DNA of 24,528 nt from the IMG/VR virus record IMGVR_UViG_3300032241_000279, positions 1 to 24,528 of that record, one strand, 5' to 3'. Origin of the DNA: a virus. The notes under the pieces were generated by a model. It saw only the letters and a list, made by a program, of their open reading frames with translations. It was not told the DNA's origin and did not search any database. Position 1 is the stretch's first letter. Each line of letters begins with the position of its first letter. Shown in pieces: positions 448-23,635 of the stretch. The position numbers and the translations under genes are program-made.

Positions 448-3400
448 ATGGCATTAGTATCACCCGGCGTACAAGTAACTGTAGTAGATCAATCACAATA
501 TCTCTCAGGCGCCACAAACTCGATTCCATTTGTTTTGTTAGCAACTGCTCAAAACAAAGCAAATCCAAATAGCCCAGGCACTGTAGCCGTAGGCACAACA
601 GCAGCAAACGCTAACACACTAACATTAGTAACAAGTCAAACAGACTTGGTAACTCTTTTCGGTAACCCATTTTTTTATAACACAACAAATGGTACCCCAA
701 TCAATGGTTACGAACTTAATGAATATGGTCTTTTAGCAGCATATCAAGCATTAGGTTTAACAAATCAACTTTATGTTTTACGTGCGGACATCGACTTATC
801 AGCATTGATTGGTTCAGTAGGTCGCCCAACAGGTCAACCTGCCAACGGCGCATGGTGGTTAAACACAACCAATAGTACATGGGGCGTTTATGAATTTGAT
901 CAAGTAACAGGTAGTTTTAATTTACAAACTCCTGATGTATTAAATTCAGATGACACAACATTAGTATCTGGTGGTTTTCCTGTATCAAGTTATGGTGCAA
1001 TTGGTGATTACGCAGTAATCGCAACCCCAATTAATTCAGGTCCTGCATATTCATCAGGTCAGCAATATTTCTATAAGAACTCAAGTAATACTTGGGTATC
1101 ATTAGGTTCAAGTGCATGGTTAAAATCTGTAGCAACAGTAACAGCATCAAATAGCAATCCTACATTGACTGCTGGTGATACTTTTTACTTAAACATCATT
1201 AACCCAAGTAACCCAAGTGGCACAACTGGTAGAATAGTAATCACAGTTCCAAACTCACCAAACAACAATGTTAATGGTGTAGCAAGTGCGATTGGCGCAT
1301 TAGGATATGGTGTATTAAGTGCAACTGTTGTAAGTGGAAAATTAAATATTTTCACTTCACAACCTGCAGTTGATGGTCAATATTATGGAATTACAATTTC
1401 AGCAGATAGTGGCACAGTTCTAAGTGATTTAGGTTTAGTTGCAGGCAACTATCAACAGCCACAATTTATATATGGCACATCAGCACAACAACCATTATGG
1501 CAAGCAAGTCAATCTGTACCTGCTCCAAGTGGTTCGGTATGGATCAAAGTAGGTAGTGCAGGTAATGGTTTACTTCCATCAGTAAGTCAATATAACACAG
1601 CAACATTATCATGGGTCAATAAGCCAGTAACAATGGCAACAAGTGACTGGTATGCTGACTCAGTATTAGATGCAACAGGTGGTTCAGCAATTCCTGCTAA
1701 CACAGTATATGCTCAATACAATTTTGATACAGACACATCAAAAGGTCCAGTTTATTTGTGGTCACGTGCATCAACTGGGGCAACAATTGCCACAGGTAGT
1801 GTAACAGATCCATCATTTAGTGGAGCATTCACTGCACAGATTTATGTAAGTACACCAAGTTCACAAAGTTTAACTGGTCCTTATACAATGACTTTAGGTA
1901 GTGGCACACATACTGCTAGTAACTTTATTACTGCATGGTATGCAAGTGGCGTTCCTTACACACAAGTAACACAAAACTCAAGCGGTGCGATTGTAATCAG
2001 TCACACAGCAGGTGGTGAAATTGTTGTAGACGATACAAATTACTCAACAGGTGTATCAAATGGTTTAATGGCAACAGCAGGCTTTGTTCCTGGCACAACA
2101 TCATTTGTTAAATATGGTCCAGCAGCAATTCCAGCATTTACCCCAACACAAACTTCAACAACTGGTTCAGGTGTAAACTTGTCAATCAGTGTTGAAAACA
2201 GTTATGGTCGTTACATTGTTAATACAACAAGTTTTGGTAACGCAGGTTCAAGTTTTGCTGTAGGTGACAGTATAACATTTAGTGGTGCAAATTTAGGCGG
2301 AACAAGTCCTGCTAATGATTTAGTTGTTAAAGTTGTTAAGGCAAACGCTGGTGTCGTAACTGAAATTGCATATGTTTCAGGCGTTGCTAACGTAGTATAC
2401 ACAACACAACTAAGTAATTGGATAGCATTAAATCCTGCTTACACAGCAAGTTTAGGTGCACCAAACGTTGCTCCAGCAAATGGTCAATTATGGTATTACA
2501 GTGATCCAACACAAGTTGATATCATGGTAAATGTTAACGGTGTATGGAAAGGTTATAAACAAACAAACTATGATAGCAATGGTTTCCCAACACCAACTGG
2601 CAGTAACACAACCGATCCAAACGGTCCAATCATTAGTGCAACAGCACCAACAACACAAAGTAATGGTGTAACAGCATTAAGTTATGGCGATCTTTGGGTA
2701 GACACTAGTGATCTAGTAAACTATCCAATGTTGTATCGTTGGCAGTTGTCAGGCGGTATGGATCAATGGGTATTAATTAGTAATACTGATAGTGTCAACA
2801 GTCAAGGTATTATCTTTGAAGATGCACGTTGGGCAACTAACGGCGACACAAATCCAGCAACTGATCCAATTCCAACAATTCAGAGTTTGTTAACAAGTAA
2901 CTATCTTGATTTAGATGCTCCAGTAGCATCGTTATTCCCAACAGGAATATTGTTATGGAACACAAGACGCAGTGGCTTTAATGTAAAAGCATATGAAGTA
3001 AATTACTTCAACAGCGTAAGTTTCCCAGATCAAGATTTGCCAGCACAAACAGATGCATGGGTAACACAAAGTGGTAACATGGAAAATGGTGCTCCATACA
3101 TGGGTGCATATGCTCAACGTGCAATGGTTGTAAAATCATTACGTGCAGCAATTGAAACCAACCAAGACATTCGTGATGAAGATAACAACTTCAACTTACA
3201 ATGCTGCCCTAACTATCCAGAATTGCAACCAGACATGATTGCACTTAACGTAGATAGAGGTCAAACAGGTTACATCATTGGTGACACACCAATGACACTA
3301 CCTAATGATGCAACAAGCATTGTTGCTTGGGCAACAAACGCAGCAGGAGCAGCAAGCACAGGTGTTCAAGGTCTCGTAACACGTGACACTTACATGGGCT

Positions 3401-4053
3401 TGTTCTATCCAAGTGGTTTAAGTGTAGATACAGCAGGCAACCAAGTTGCAGTTCCACCAAGTCATATGATGTTAAGTACATTCTTATATAATGACCAAGT
3501 GGCTTATCCGTGGTTAGCACCTGCAGGTACACGTAGAGGTTTAATTAACAATGCAACAAGTATTGGTTACATAAATGCACAAACAGGTGCGTTTGTATCA
3601 ATCAAAACAAGTCAAGGCATTCGTGACACACTCTACACAAACAACATTAACCCATTAGTGTTCTTTACAGGAAATGGCTTACTTAACTATGGTAACATTA
3701 CAAGTTTTGAATCAAACAGCGCACTAGATCGTATCAACGTTGCACGTTTGATTGCATATATACGCCGTCAATTAACTATAGCAGCAAGACCATTCGTGTT
3801 TGAACCTAACGATAGTATTACACAAAAAGCAATTGCCGGTGTAATTCAATCATTGTTTGTTGACCTAGTAGCAAAACGCGGTATATATGACTATATCGTA
3901 GTTTGCGATAGTTCAAACAACACACCTGCTAGAGTTGATGCGAATGAATTATGGGTAGACTGTGCTATTGAACCAGTCAAAGCAGCAGAGTTTATCTATA
4001 TTCCAGTTCGCGTATTAGCAACAGGCACAATTGGTAACAATAACGGGCAATAA
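448..4053 (+). CDS. 18: Tail sheath protein (T4 gp18-like), with very large central insertion
   Basis: This is the contractile sheath subunit that surrounds the tail tube and drives DNA delivery. The N-terminus (MALVSPGVQV, then a PFVLLATAQNK segment and LFGNPFF) and the C-terminal region from about residue 785 (EDARW, ILLWNTRRSGFNVKAYEVNYF, INVARLIAYIRRQL, FEPND) are typical of T4-like sheath proteins. T4 gp18 is about 660 aa; this one is 1201 aa. The extra length lies at roughly residues 125-785. That region is Ser/Thr/Gly/Asn-rich and contains recurring short modules of the form NG-x-x-W ... W, near residues 131-146, 357-390, 676-700 and 745-774, probably surface-exposed beta domains. The ribosome site AAGGA is 8 nt before the ATG. 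It is followed by the tube gene, the usual gp18-gp19 order. Identity is confident; the role of the insertion is unknown. Confidence 0.93.
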   Translation: MALVSPGVQVTVVDQSQYLSGATNSIPFVLLATAQNKANPNSPGTVAVGTTAANANTLTLVTSQTDLVTLFGNPFFYNTTNGTPINGYELNEYGLLAAYQALGLTNQLYVLRADIDLSALIGSVGRPTGQPANGAWWLNTTNSTWGVYEFDQVTGSFNLQTPDVLNSDDTTLVSGGFPVSSYGAIGDYAVIATPINSGPAYSSGQQYFYKNSSNTWVSLGSSAWLKSVATVTASNSNPTLTAGDTFYLNIINPSNPSGTTGRIVITVPNSPNNNVNGVASAIGALGYGVLSATVVSGKLNIFTSQPAVDGQYYGITISADSGTVLSDLGLVAGNYQQPQFIYGTSAQQPLWQASQSVPAPSGSVWIKVGSAGNGLLPSVSQYNTATLSWVNKPVTMATSDWYADSVLDATGGSAIPANTVYAQYNFDTDTSKGPVYLWSRASTGATIATGSVTDPSFSGAFTAQIYVSTPSSQSLTGPYTMTLGSGTHTASNFITAWYASGVPYTQVTQNSSGAIVISHTAGGEIVVDDTNYSTGVSNGLMATAGFVPGTTSFVKYGPAAIPAFTPTQTSTTGSGVNLSISVENSYGRYIVNTTSFGNAGSSFAVGDSITFSGANLGGTSPANDLVVKVVKANAGVVTEIAYVSGVANVVYTTQLSNWIALNPAYTASLGAPNVAPANGQLWYYSDPTQVDIMVNVNGVWKGYKQTNYDSNGFPTPTGSNTTDPNGPIISATAPTTQSNGVTALSYGDLWVDTSDLVNYPMLYRWQLSGGMDQWVLISNTDSVNSQGIIFEDARWATNGDTNPATDPIPTIQSLLTSNYLDLDAPVASLFPTGILLWNTRRSGFNVKAYEVNYFNSVSFPDQDLPAQTDAWVTQSGNMENGAPYMGAYAQRAMVVKSLRAAIETNQDIRDEDNNFNLQCCPNYPELQPDMIALNVDRGQTGYIIGDTPMTLPNDATSIVAWATNAAGAASTGVQGLVTRDTYMGLFYPSGLSVDTAGNQVAVPPSHMMLSTFLYNDQVAYPWLAPAGTRRGLINNATSIGYINAQTGAFVSIKTSQGIRDTLYTNNINPLVFFTGNGLLNYGNITSFESNSALDRINVARLIAYIRRQLTIAARPFVFEPNDSITQKAIAGVIQSLFVDLVAKRGIYDYIVVCDSSNNTPARVDANELWVDCAIEPVKAAEFIYIPVRVLATGTIGNNNGQ

Positions 4054-4060
4054 GTAGATC

Positions 4061-4088
4061 ATCTGGGCGTCAGCAATGGCGCCCAGAT
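4061..4088 (+). terminator. Strong hairpin between sheath and tube genes
   Basis: ATCTGGGCG (4061-4069) pairs perfectly with CGCCCAGAT (4080-4088), and a U-G and a C-G pair extend the stem to 11 bp with a 6-nt loop. No T tract follows, so it is not a classical intrinsic terminator. It may define or protect the 3' end of sheath mRNA. Its 3' arm overlaps the late-promoter octamer at 4086-4093. Confidence 0.6.
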
Positions 4089-4093
4089 AAATA
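4086..4093 (+). promoter_or_regulatory. Late-type promoter GATAAATA for tail tube gene
   Basis: GATAAATA differs from TATAAATA only in the first base and sits 24 nt before the ATG of the tube gene. The expected start near 4099 gives a short leader containing the AGGAG ribosome site at 4106-4110. Its first three bases are part of the preceding hairpin's 3' arm. Confidence 0.6.
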
Positions 4094-4117: not shown

Positions 4118-4768
4118 ATGGCAGTAGCCTCACAATCACTGTTTAACATGACAGTAGCAGGTGACAACGCAGGTGGCAATCAAGGCTTGTTAATGCCTAA
4201 ATTGCAATTTAGATTCCGTGTTAATTTTATTAACTTGGGTCTAGGCAATTCAGGTTTAAGTTTAACAAAACAAGTAATGGAATGCGCACGTCCAAACTTG
4301 AGTTTTGATGAAATCACATTGAATGTTTACAACAGTCGCATTTATCTTGCTGGTAAGCATACATGGAACGAATTAAATATGACAATTCGTGACGATGCCG
4401 CTGGCACAGTTGCAACTGCATTAGGTGAACAATTACAAAAACAAATGAACTTTGTAGAACAAGCAAGTGCAGCAGCAGGTCAAGATTATAAATTTGAAAC
4501 AAACATTCAAATTCTTGATGGTGGCAATGGTGCATATACACCAGTTGTTCTTGAAGAATGGCAACTTTATGGTTGCTTCTTAAAGACAGCCAACTATCAA
4601 ACATTAAACTATGCTACAAGTGATGCGGTACAAGTTCAAATCACATTACGTTATGATAACGCAGTACAATTAGAAAATGGTACATTAAGCGGAGTAGGTA
4701 ATGAGGTTGTAACTAGAAATCAATCGCGTTCACAAGACTCAGCAACAGGTATTGGTAGCGTAACATAA
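4118..4768 (+). CDS. 19: Tail tube protein (T4 gp19-like)
   Basis: This protein forms the inner tube of the contractile tail, stacked as hexameric rings inside the sheath. It has the conserved tube signature: MPKLQFRFRVNF near residues 26-37, then KQVMECARPNLSFDEI and VYNSRIYLAGKHTW near 51-82, followed by the WQLYGCFLKTANYQTLNY block near 148-165. At 216 aa it is longer than T4 gp19 (163 aa), with extra residues at both ends; the C-terminal tail after about residue 190 is Ser/Asn/Gln-rich and probably flexible. AGGAG lies 7 nt upstream of the ATG. It follows the sheath gene across a hairpin and late promoter and is closed by a second hairpin. Confidence 0.92.
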   Translation: MAVASQSLFNMTVAGDNAGGNQGLLMPKLQFRFRVNFINLGLGNSGLSLTKQVMECARPNLSFDEITLNVYNSRIYLAGKHTWNELNMTIRDDAAGTVATALGEQLQKQMNFVEQASAAAGQDYKFETNIQILDGGNGAYTPVVLEEWQLYGCFLKTANYQTLNYATSDAVQVQITLRYDNAVQLENGTLSGVGNEVVTRNQSRSQDSATGIGSVT

Positions 4769-4774
4769 TAATAC

Positions 4775-4817
4775 ATCCTACTCATATGATAAATATTATG
4801 AGTAGGATTATTTTTTT
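4775..4817 (+). terminator. Intrinsic terminator whose loop contains a late promoter and whose 3' arm contains the next gene's ribosome site
   Basis: A perfect 12-bp stem (4775-4786 with 4797-4808) encloses a 10-nt loop, TGATAAATAT, and is followed by a T-rich run ending at 4817, directly before the next ATG. This fits a rho-independent terminator after the tail tube gene. The loop holds a GATAAATA late-promoter octamer, and the 3' arm holds AGGA (4804-4807), the only Shine-Dalgarno candidate for the next gene. Confidence 0.8.
4788..4795 (+). promoter_or_regulatory. Late-type promoter GATAAATA inside terminator loop
   Basis: By T4 geometry RNA would begin near 4801, after the hairpin's 5' arm. 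The late message therefore could not fold the hairpin, and its AGGA would be free. Read-through RNA from upstream would fold it and hide AGGA. Confidence 0.6.
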
Positions 4818-6089
4818 ATGGCATACGGCTTTAACTCACAACCTGTAGAAATACCTCCGTATAAAATAGATACGGTTGGTAATCAAACCCTTACAGAAAT
4901 ACTTTCAGATTGGTTTCATGCTTCGAGACTTTTTCGAAGTAATTCATATCGTAATGCTCCTAAATTCAAGTTTTTATATCATGTATACTTTGATATTAAT
5001 CCTGCAGCATATACACCTTCAACTCCAGAACAAAGTAATTTAATAGGTATTTTAGTTAGAGAAGTTAAACTACCTAGTTATACTTTTACAACACATCAAT
5101 TAAATCAATACAATCGTAAACGAATTGTACAAACAAAAATAAAATATGATCCTGTAAATTTTCAATTTCACGATGATAATAATAATACTATTGCTAAAAT
5201 GTGGGCAGCGTATTATACATATTATTATGCAGATGGCTCAATTCCAGGAGTTGCTTTTTCAGGAAACAACGCACAAGCAAGTTCTGCAACTATAGGAACT
5301 CCAAATGGAGGCTCTCAACAAGTTGTTACTGCTAGTAACTATGATTTACGCACACAATATGTTCCTTCTAATGCATTACCAAATCCAAACAATTGGGGGT
5401 ATATTGGCGAAACAAATAGTCCAGCAAATCAGCAAGCAGCAAAAGTTCCTTTCTTTAAAAACATAACTATCTTTGGACTTAATAGACATAACTTTTTAGC
5501 GTATACACTTATTAATCCTATTATTACAAGTTTTAGCCACGACACTTATAACTACGATGATGGTTCAGGAACCATGCGTAATATTATGAATGTTGATTAT
5601 GAAACTGTAGTATATAATGAAGGACAGTTAGATGGCACACAACCAGGAACATATGTTACAGGGTTTGGTAATCCTGATGTTTATGATCGAGATATTAGTC
5701 CTATTACAAAAGACGGAACACAAGGATATGTACTTAGTACAAATGGATTACAACCAAGTGAAGGAGGAGAAGTGTCTCCATTACGCAGACCAAATACTTT
5801 AAACCCAACTGTAAACAATCAACCAACTACAACAGCATATGCAGTAACTGCAAACAATGATATTCCTGAAATAATTACTACAGCATCAAGATTGCCACCT
5901 AATAACCCTCAATCAGGCATAAGCATACCTACACCAAATACTACAGAAAATGAAATACCTGAAATAGTAACTACATCACAGCGATTGCCACCAGTAGCAG
6001 GACAACAGGTTAATCCAGTACAACCCGTACAATCAGCCCCTACAAGTGGCGGAACATTTGGCGGTGGTGGTGCAAGTGGAACTTGGTAA
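4818..6089 (+). CDS. Tail-tube-fold virion protein, possibly gp54-like baseplate/tube initiator
   Basis: This is a 423-aa protein placed directly after the tail tube. Residues 49-150 (KFKFLYHVYFDI, IGILVREVKLPSYTF, QLNQYNRKRIVQT, YDPVNFQFHDDN, WAAYYTYYYADGS) and 212-267 (NITIFGLNRHNFLAYTLINPIITSF, then GTMRNIMNVDYETVVYNEG) are laid out like gp19/gp54-type tube proteins, with an insertion of about 60 residues at roughly 145-210. T4 gp54 is 320 aa and starts tube polymerisation on the baseplate; this or a second tube-like protein fits, but I cannot decide between them from sequence alone. The C-terminal 130 residues look unstructured, with two near-identical IPEI-x-TT-x-x-RLPP segments (349-361 and 380-392) and a Gly-rich end. 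The ribosome site AGGA lies in the 3' arm of the upstream terminator hairpin. Confidence 0.65.
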   Translation: MAYGFNSQPVEIPPYKIDTVGNQTLTEILSDWFHASRLFRSNSYRNAPKFKFLYHVYFDINPAAYTPSTPEQSNLIGILVREVKLPSYTFTTHQLNQYNRKRIVQTKIKYDPVNFQFHDDNNNTIAKMWAAYYTYYYADGSIPGVAFSGNNAQASSATIGTPNGGSQQVVTASNYDLRTQYVPSNALPNPNNWGYIGETNSPANQQAAKVPFFKNITIFGLNRHNFLAYTLINPIITSFSHDTYNYDDGSGTMRNIMNVDYETVVYNEGQLDGTQPGTYVTGFGNPDVYDRDISPITKDGTQGYVLSTNGLQPSEGGEVSPLRRPNTLNPTVNNQPTTTAYAVTANNDIPEIITTASRLPPNNPQSGISIPTPNTTENEIPEIVTTSQRLPPVAGQQVNPVQPVQSAPTSGGTFGGGGASGTW

Positions 6090-6924: not shown

Positions 6925-6932
6925 AATAAATA
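6925..6932 (+). promoter_or_regulatory. Possible late-type promoter AATAAATA abutting the terminase start
   Basis: AATAAATA ends 4 nt before the ATG of the gp16-like gene. If used with T4 spacing, the RNA would start at or next to the ATG, giving a leaderless message. No Shine-Dalgarno sequence is present upstream of this ATG. Confidence 0.4.
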
Positions 6933-10350: not shown

Positions 10351-10381
10351 AAAAATAGCCGGTATATCCGGCTATTTTTTT
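10351..10381 (+). terminator. Intrinsic terminator after the head-protein block
   Basis: A perfect 12-bp stem (10351-10362 with 10368-10379) has the GC-rich core TAGCCGG/CCGGCTA, a 5-nt loop, and continues into a run of T ending at 10381. It lies 18 bp after the stop codon of the 738-aa gene. The A and T flanks make it able to act on both strands, but no gene approaches from the right. Confidence 0.88.
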
Positions 10382-22991: not shown

Positions 22992-22998
22992 TATTATT

Positions 22999-23006
22999 GA
23001 TAAATA
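22999..23006 (+). promoter_or_regulatory. Late-type promoter GATAAATA abutting a start codon
   Basis: GATAAATA ends 5 nt before the ATG at 23012. With T4 late spacing the RNA would start exactly on the A of that ATG. No Shine-Dalgarno sequence is present in the short gap after the preceding gene. Confidence 0.45.
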
Positions 23007-23011
23007 CATAC

Positions 23012-23635
23012 ATGGTACATAAAGTTGCAGACGATTTTTTTAATAATATAGACTTTGTTAGTATAGTAAGCACTGTTAAGGGCATTTATACTAGCGATGG
23101 CGCCATGTCTATTCTATTAGACTTTGAGCGTGTTTTAGACGATGCTGATTTATACGCATACAAAAACTGGATATTAGGTGAACTAGTACAGGGTCCAAAT
23201 GTAGGACGATATGACTGTACTTGCGTGTTCATGTGGCCCTATAAATTGATGCCAGATCCAGGTGCTATTAAACGCTTATTAAATTTAGGTTGCAAAGTAG
23301 AATTTGCTAAAAGTTCGGTAGAAGTACCTGTTGCTGTAAATGATTATGATGATTTTATTCCAGGCACAAAATATCCAAAATTCAAACCACAAAAAGTTTG
23401 GTTTGTAAAAATTACTATTCCATTAGAACTTATGGATGATATTAAAGAAGGCAGCATTGATTTGGCTGGTCAAACAATTGACTTAGCCGACATTGATGAC
23501 GCATATGATGAAGATTTAGATAAACAAGAAATCAAATCAGATGATGAACAGCAACTTAGTAGCCCAAATGCAGGTATAGGAGCAGGCCCATTACCAGCAG
23601 GTTCAAATCCAATTGGCACACCTCCAGGATTATAA
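23012..23635 (+). CDS. Conserved T4-like phage protein, function unknown (acidic C-terminus)
   Basis: The ATG at 23012 is chosen over an upstream in-frame TTG at 22997 because the TTG falls in the promoter-like octamer and adds only five residues; this gives 207 aa. Residues 7-27 (DDFFNNIDFVSIVSTVKGIY), 35-50 (LLDFERVLDDADLYAY), 68-97 (DCTCVFMWPYKLMPDPGAIK and KVEF) and 128-140 (KVWFVKITIPLEL) form an alpha/beta domain I recall as conserved in marine T4-like phages without a function. Residues 148-176 are strongly acidic, and the last 25 are Gly/Pro-rich and disordered. Neighbours on both sides are likewise unknown phage genes downstream of gp44. No catalytic motif is seen. Confidence 0.65.
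   Translation: MVHKVADDFFNNIDFVSIVSTVKGIYTSDGAMSILLDFERVLDDADLYAYKNWILGELVQGPNVGRYDCTCVFMWPYKLMPDPGAIKRLLNLGCKVEFAKSSVEVPVAVNDYDDFIPGTKYPKFKPQKVWFVKITIPLELMDDIKEGSIDLAGQTIDLADIDDAYDEDLDKQEIKSDDEQQLSSPNAGIGAGPLPAGSNPIGTPPGL

Follow-up and report, generated by a model that had tools for sequence, protein, structure and literature searches.

Why should a candidate late promoter of a T4-like phage lie in the loop of a perfect hairpin, one arm of which holds the ribosome-binding site of the next gene? The question arises at a junction of two genes in a 24,528-nt stretch of DNA (the window, in what follows) whose source is an uncultivated T4-like giant phage. PHROG profile matches identify the window as carrying T4-related phage tail genes, for the sheath, the tube and a second protein of the tube fold. 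The sheath gene (a profile match) occupies 448-4053. The tail tube gene lies at 4118-4768 on the plus strand (PHROG tail tube, phrog_4542, E 9.5e-52) and the putatively regulated gene, coding for the second tube-fold protein of 423 amino acids, at 4818-6089 on the same strand (phrog_13438, E 5e-13; phrog_4542, E 2e-11). The structural model of the latter protein is of low confidence (pLDDT 43); the folds that it resembles are those of the tail tube, the baseplate tube and Hcp (best E 1.3e-5), and it is too weak to support anything more specific than 'tube fold'. A sequence match to solved structures was sought for this protein, and none was found. It is probably a low-copy component.

The tail tube reading frame stops at 4766-4768, and 6 nt further on, between the two tail genes, begins a perfect stem of 12 Watson-Crick pairs. 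Its 5' arm, ATCCTACTCATA (4775-4786), and 3' arm, TATGAGTAGGAT (4797-4808), are defined by sequence, fold and covariation in relatives, and they enclose a 10-nt loop, TGATAAATAT (4787-4796), in which is set the late-promoter-type octamer GATAAATA (4788-4795). The Shine-Dalgarno (SD) motif of the second tube-fold gene, AGGA (4804-4807), which is the sole SD-like motif of the leader, lies within the 3' arm, 10 nt upstream of the ATG at 4818, and a T-rich, terminator-like tail, TATTTTTTT (4809-4817), fills the remaining space; all of these features are on the plus strand. The first-pass annotation of this DNA had picked out stem, loop, octamer, tail and AGGA by inspection, and a check against the sequence found each of them, coordinates included, to be exact. 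RNA covering 4760-4835 is predicted to fold at -20.4 kcal/mol (z -5.0), which none of 200 shuffled sequences equals. Perfect stems of 12 bp or more whose loops measure 3-12 nt are expected at only 0.05 per window (60 dinucleotide shuffles), and the window has two. (The other, at 10351-10379, is terminator-like on the minus strand.) A terminator scan with a loop limit of 8 nt had skipped the 4775-4808 stem because its loop is 10 nt long. No Rfam family is matched in the window at gathering score.

Is the loop octamer a promoter? The bare motif is no guide: with one mismatch allowed it is matched 71 times in this A+T-rich window against 88 expected, and is thus neither rare nor above chance. Those counts are what one would cite for taking GATAAATA to be a chance match, leaving a hairpin with nothing but a translational or 3'-end role, but the placement of the octamer argues otherwise. 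In the window and five related contigs, octamer-to-ATG distances gather at 4-6 nt (41 cases) and at 16-24 nt (65 cases), with 9 at 7-15 nt, and an SD motif is present in 48 of 78 leaders with octamer-ATG distances of 14-27 nt vs 2 of 46 with distances of 3-8 nt. The loop octamer, 22 nt from its ATG, falls within the 16-24 nt peak of the SD-led class. The sister lineage L015, in which the tube gene is 80% identical, has CATAAATA in the same place and with the same predicted start, although the rest of the loop differs. Moreover, among 213 promoters an octamer within a hairpin (score of at least 12) was observed nine times, with 0.75 expected from shuffled flanks. A chance match is, on this evidence, distinctly unlikely, and we infer that the loop octamer is used as a promoter; with the start-site spacing of T4, its RNA would begin at about 4801. 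A gp55-family late sigma factor is not encoded in the 24.5-kb fragment; six of the larger related contigs do encode one (E 2e-25 to 4e-22), and for CBB, a cultured relative, the late motif ATAAATA and a gp55-like sigma factor have been reported (PMC5259590).

The shorter spacing defines a second class of late promoter that is found in many related contigs, the octamer ending 4-6 nt upstream of the ATG in leaders that lack an SD. Examples in the window are 6925-6932 (ATG 6937) and 22999-23006 (ATG 23012); the latter touches the reading frame 22997-23635, whose start, listed as the TTG at 22997, has probably been placed too far upstream, the ATG at 23012 lying 5 nt after the octamer. Judged by T4 start-site spacing, late mRNAs of this class would be leaderless, and our literature search found no report on leaderless T4-like late mRNAs.

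The reading that we consider probable is that the 4775-4817 element is a translational switch set by the point at which transcription starts, with the SD silenced or, in RNA from the late promoter, freed. RNA entering from the tube gene or from genes further upstream would have both arms, would form the 12-bp hairpin and would hide the sole AGGA. RNA from the loop promoter, beginning at about 4801, would lack the 5' arm, so that the hairpin cannot form, and would be translatable. Predicted folds put the unpaired probability of AGGA at 0.000-0.004 in read-through RNA vs 0.31-0.86 in RNA from 4801, which bears out the first-pass proposal that AGGA is hidden in the one and free in the other. One short sequence is thereby predicted to serve as promoter when DNA and as translational lock when RNA. 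The size of the translational effect we likewise infer.

Which RNA would be silenced? The tail tube gene has a late-promoter octamer of its own at 4086-4093 on the plus strand, 24 nt upstream of the ATG at 4118 and followed by AGGAG, and late RNA that reads through into the 4775-4808 hairpin probably comes from this promoter. (A separate plus-strand hairpin, at 4061-4088, z -5.2, lies 5' of this octamer and overlaps it; it has no T-run, leaves the tube SD unmasked and is kept in most relatives despite sequence change.) The first-pass annotation had carried over from T4 the rationale that the hairpin blocks early RNA, and at this junction that rationale is weak because the upstream tube gene is itself late. 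Read-through here probably being mainly late RNA, the effect would be to uncouple the second tube-fold protein from the tube message: preventing translation of the second gene off tube transcripts fits better than blocking early RNA. The benefit would be that late transcripts of its own gene, and not the abundant tube message, supply the second tube-fold protein. Any early RNA running over the second tube-fold gene would be silenced in the same way.

The mechanism itself is known, being that of the T4 e, soc, 49 and I-TevI class (PMC3014915; PMC2988022). The leaders of these genes, and of T4 segB and Aeh1 mobE, have a late promoter nested in an SD-masking hairpin (PMC3014915, PMC2988022); in T4 e the SD is masked in a longer RNA, the late promoter or promoters lie within the hairpin region, and the late RNA lacks the 5' strand (PMC3014915). 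The known hairpin was recovered when the T4 e leader was run as a positive control (z -4.0). T4 e and the window junction share the layout of a masked SD and a nested late promoter, and differ in other respects: e is a lysis gene and its upstream gene is early or middle, whereas here a structural gene of the tail (or, as set out below, the neck) is regulated and the upstream gene at the junction is late; the window hairpin also carries a T-run, unlike that of e. T4 soc, 49, segB and I-TevI and Aeh1 mobE follow the same logic in different genes and phages, soc alone among them coding for another virion protein. The likeness to e, soc and I-TevI that the first-pass annotation had drawn is thus well founded, and the compensatory changes and the neck-gene leaders described below strengthen it. 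In T4, hairpin-nested late promoters are documented for a few special genes only: those for lysozyme, soc, gene 49 and homing endonucleases. Use at tail and neck genes, depth of conservation at the neck gene and presence in culturable jumbo phages are, as far as we have found in the literature, new.

Conservation separates the parts of the element. Six near lineages, counting that of the window, were compared at the tube junction; their tube DNA is 73-84% identical between lineages. All 84 cells of the stem alignment (seven rows, representing the six lineages) are paired, and three pairs have changed on both sides. The covariation score of the stem is 0.270, against 0.161 +/- 0.031 for shuffled alignments and at most 0.119 for slid controls; eight of the 12 pairs are invariant, in part because the sequences are close and because the SD constrains one arm. 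The AGGAUU of the 3' arm is kept in all six lineages, 9-10 nt upstream of the ATG. The octamer is kept in two of the six, the window group and its sister L015 (branch support 92/94); in L006, L010, L014 and L017 it is absent, and no octamer is found anywhere between the tube gene and the next ATG. The T-run is confined to the window group, the five other lineages (L006, L010, L014, L015 and L017) having ATTTTAATAAC, ATTATAAAAAC and similar sequences in its place. The first-pass annotation had looked to related phages for a kept stem, octamer and AGGA: stem and AGGA are indeed kept throughout, but the octamer is not. What is conserved, by this comparison, is the predicted SD masking; the nested promoter is a subclade trait, and a terminator could be no more than a local feature.

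The last of these points bears on the possibility that the main role of the hairpin is to form the 3' end of the tube message, as intrinsic terminator or exonuclease barrier, that the promoter restarts transcription and that the SD came to lie in the stem through tight packing. The T-rich tail at 4809-4817 is the obvious reason for entertaining it. Two other observations lean the same way: the tube promoter, too, has a hairpin in front of it, one that masks no SD, and distant relatives often have, at the same junction, a separate G+C-rich stem with a T-run and then an octamer right before the ATG. (The second tube gene in these distant relatives thus belongs to the 4-6 nt octamer class that lacks an SD.) However, five other near lineages keep the stem without a T-run, AGGAUU is invariant within the stem at a constant 9-10 nt from the ATG, and the neck leaders considered below mostly do without a T-run as well. 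We regard this reading as possible, but as the lesser possibility. A terminator for the tail tube gene had also been part of the first-pass proposal; what survives is that the tail resembles that of an intrinsic terminator, although the T-run is not conserved beyond the window group. Termination as the main function was rejected as a general explanation, the T-run not being conserved. The 4775-4808 stem is not G+C-rich. In three more distant lineages (L023, L024 and L035) the octamer at this junction sits in short palindromes near the start codon (AGTTAG..CTAACT; ATATGATAAATAATCATAT).

The four near lineages without an octamer pose a different problem. In L006, L010, L014 and L017 the hairpin masks the sole SD of the second tube gene and the octamer is missing, and the stem therefore cannot serve the switch alone. 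This is the chief argument for a rival account in which the hairpin sets the stoichiometry of tube and second protein on a polycistronic RNA, by partial SD masking or by termination-coupled re-initiation, the octamer being a later, lineage-specific addition. The geometry of the window is compatible with that account, in that the tube stop is so close to the stem that a ribosome there is predicted to open the last two SD bases (0.74-0.77). In the octamer-less relatives, however, 9-11 nt separate the stop from the stem, and no opening of the SD by a terminating ribosome is predicted; conservation of a correctly spaced octamer within the subclade also speaks against the account, which we hold to be rather doubtful. 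Termination-coupled re-initiation was accordingly rejected as the general means of relief in octamer-less relatives.

The translational switch is far better supported at another gene, that of the neck protein (T4 gp13-like, phrog_211), which surfaced when the octamers of fetched contigs were scanned for surrounding hairpins. In the neck leaders of about 90 related contigs and of cultured phages (leaders L125-L204 and L260-L271, from uncultivated and cultured jumbo phages) the late octamer lies within a covarying, SD-masking hairpin. In all 88 neck loci an in-frame ATG is preceded, at 14-27 nt, by an octamer-like motif, a count that is favoured by the start having been chosen partly by that criterion. 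The arms change together (CCTGAT/ATCAGG, CCAGAT/ATCTGG, CTTAGAT/ATCTAGG, CCCGAT/ATCGGG). When 32 cluster representatives were put to an alignment-free swap test, the leaders' own arms gave -10.17 vs -5.57 +/- 0.43 for swapped arms (0 of 20000 permutations), and a structure-blind alignment of 50 neck leaders showed double changes in seven of ten pairs, with a covariation score of 0.322 vs 0.177 +/- 0.015. Predicted SD openness averages 0.13 in read-through RNA vs 0.44 in late RNA and is lower in read-through RNA for 57 of 63 leaders. A T-run (six or more T within 10 nt downstream of the SD) is missing from 62 of 64 neck leaders. The device appears to be gene-specific, since in full contigs the remaining late promoters of the SD class have weak folds (mean -3.2; 6 of 75 at -8 or better). 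Far-clade contigs that were examined have weaker folds and no clear SD-masking hairpin around the octamer. What the neck leaders add is that a device of this kind at virion-assembly genes evolves by compensatory change, with promoter and ribosome site retained.

These leaders also bear on whether the palindrome might act at the DNA level, for instance as the operator bound by a late-promoter regulator. I-TevI does use an operator to repress the late promoter of its own gene (PMC2988022), and a palindrome that surrounds a promoter would naturally lend itself to such a role. Yet pairing is kept while the sequence of the stem varies, the SD is always in the 3' arm, and non-Watson-Crick pairs in the 50 neck leaders are biased, with 39 G-U in the sense RNA vs 8 C-A, an excess that would be expected of an RNA helix. 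We consider an operator very improbable.

The neck hairpin is also strong (z -4.2 to -8.5) in cultured phages: 121Q, RaK2, Muenster, Munch, GAP32, CBB, BF, XbC2, XaC1, Kaldavass and Hallingskeid have TCTAAATA, TATAAATA or CCTAAATA in the 5' half and the SD in the 3' arm. In a swap test on seven cultured phages 6 of 5040 permutations were at or below the true pairing. The device is not clear in the neck leaders of PA5oct, Atu_ph07, Phosso, SCTP-2 and Vibrio phage 2.275.O. The RaK2-like jumbo phages (121Q, RaK2, Munch, GAP32, CBB and BF) thus share the device with the window, but at the neck gene and not at the second tube gene; in the literature we found no report of their neck leader as a regulatory hairpin. 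Rfam matches in the 121Q leader are below threshold, weak and chance-like, and were set aside.

What lies upstream of the neck gene suggests what the device might do there. MazG is encoded upstream on the same strand in 67 of 78 loci. In cultured phages, the upstream genes are co-directional and encode nudix hydrolase, glutaredoxin, macro-domain or YqeY-like proteins, and in RaK2-like phages a cluster that includes nudE precedes the neck gene, much as nudE precedes e in T4. The CBB neck gene is the first of the main structural block, CBB_201-261 (PMC5259590). Judging by the kind of gene, those of the mazG and nudE type upstream of the neck are presumably early; early read-through is then to be expected at the neck gene, and silencing would matter there. 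(In L010 and L012, where the neck gene lies behind an opposite-strand gene, the SD is outside the stem; these cases are few.) It is about an even question whether the nested late promoter and SD-masking hairpin constitute a deeply conserved early-to-late gate at the neck gene in many T4-related jumbo phages, one that prevents virion parts from being translated off early read-through RNA and that has been redeployed at the second tube gene and at homing endonuclease genes. If so, a gate at the early/late boundary would stop virion parts being made from early RNA, and because the device occurs in 121Q and RaK2, culturable phages of E. coli and Klebsiella, this idea is directly testable.

Two homing endonuclease genes of contig G003 have a late octamer in an SD-masking hairpin, an arrangement like that of I-TevI and mobE; the hairpin is strong at one of them (L208, 9947, minus strand) and weaker at the other (L212, 18892, plus strand).
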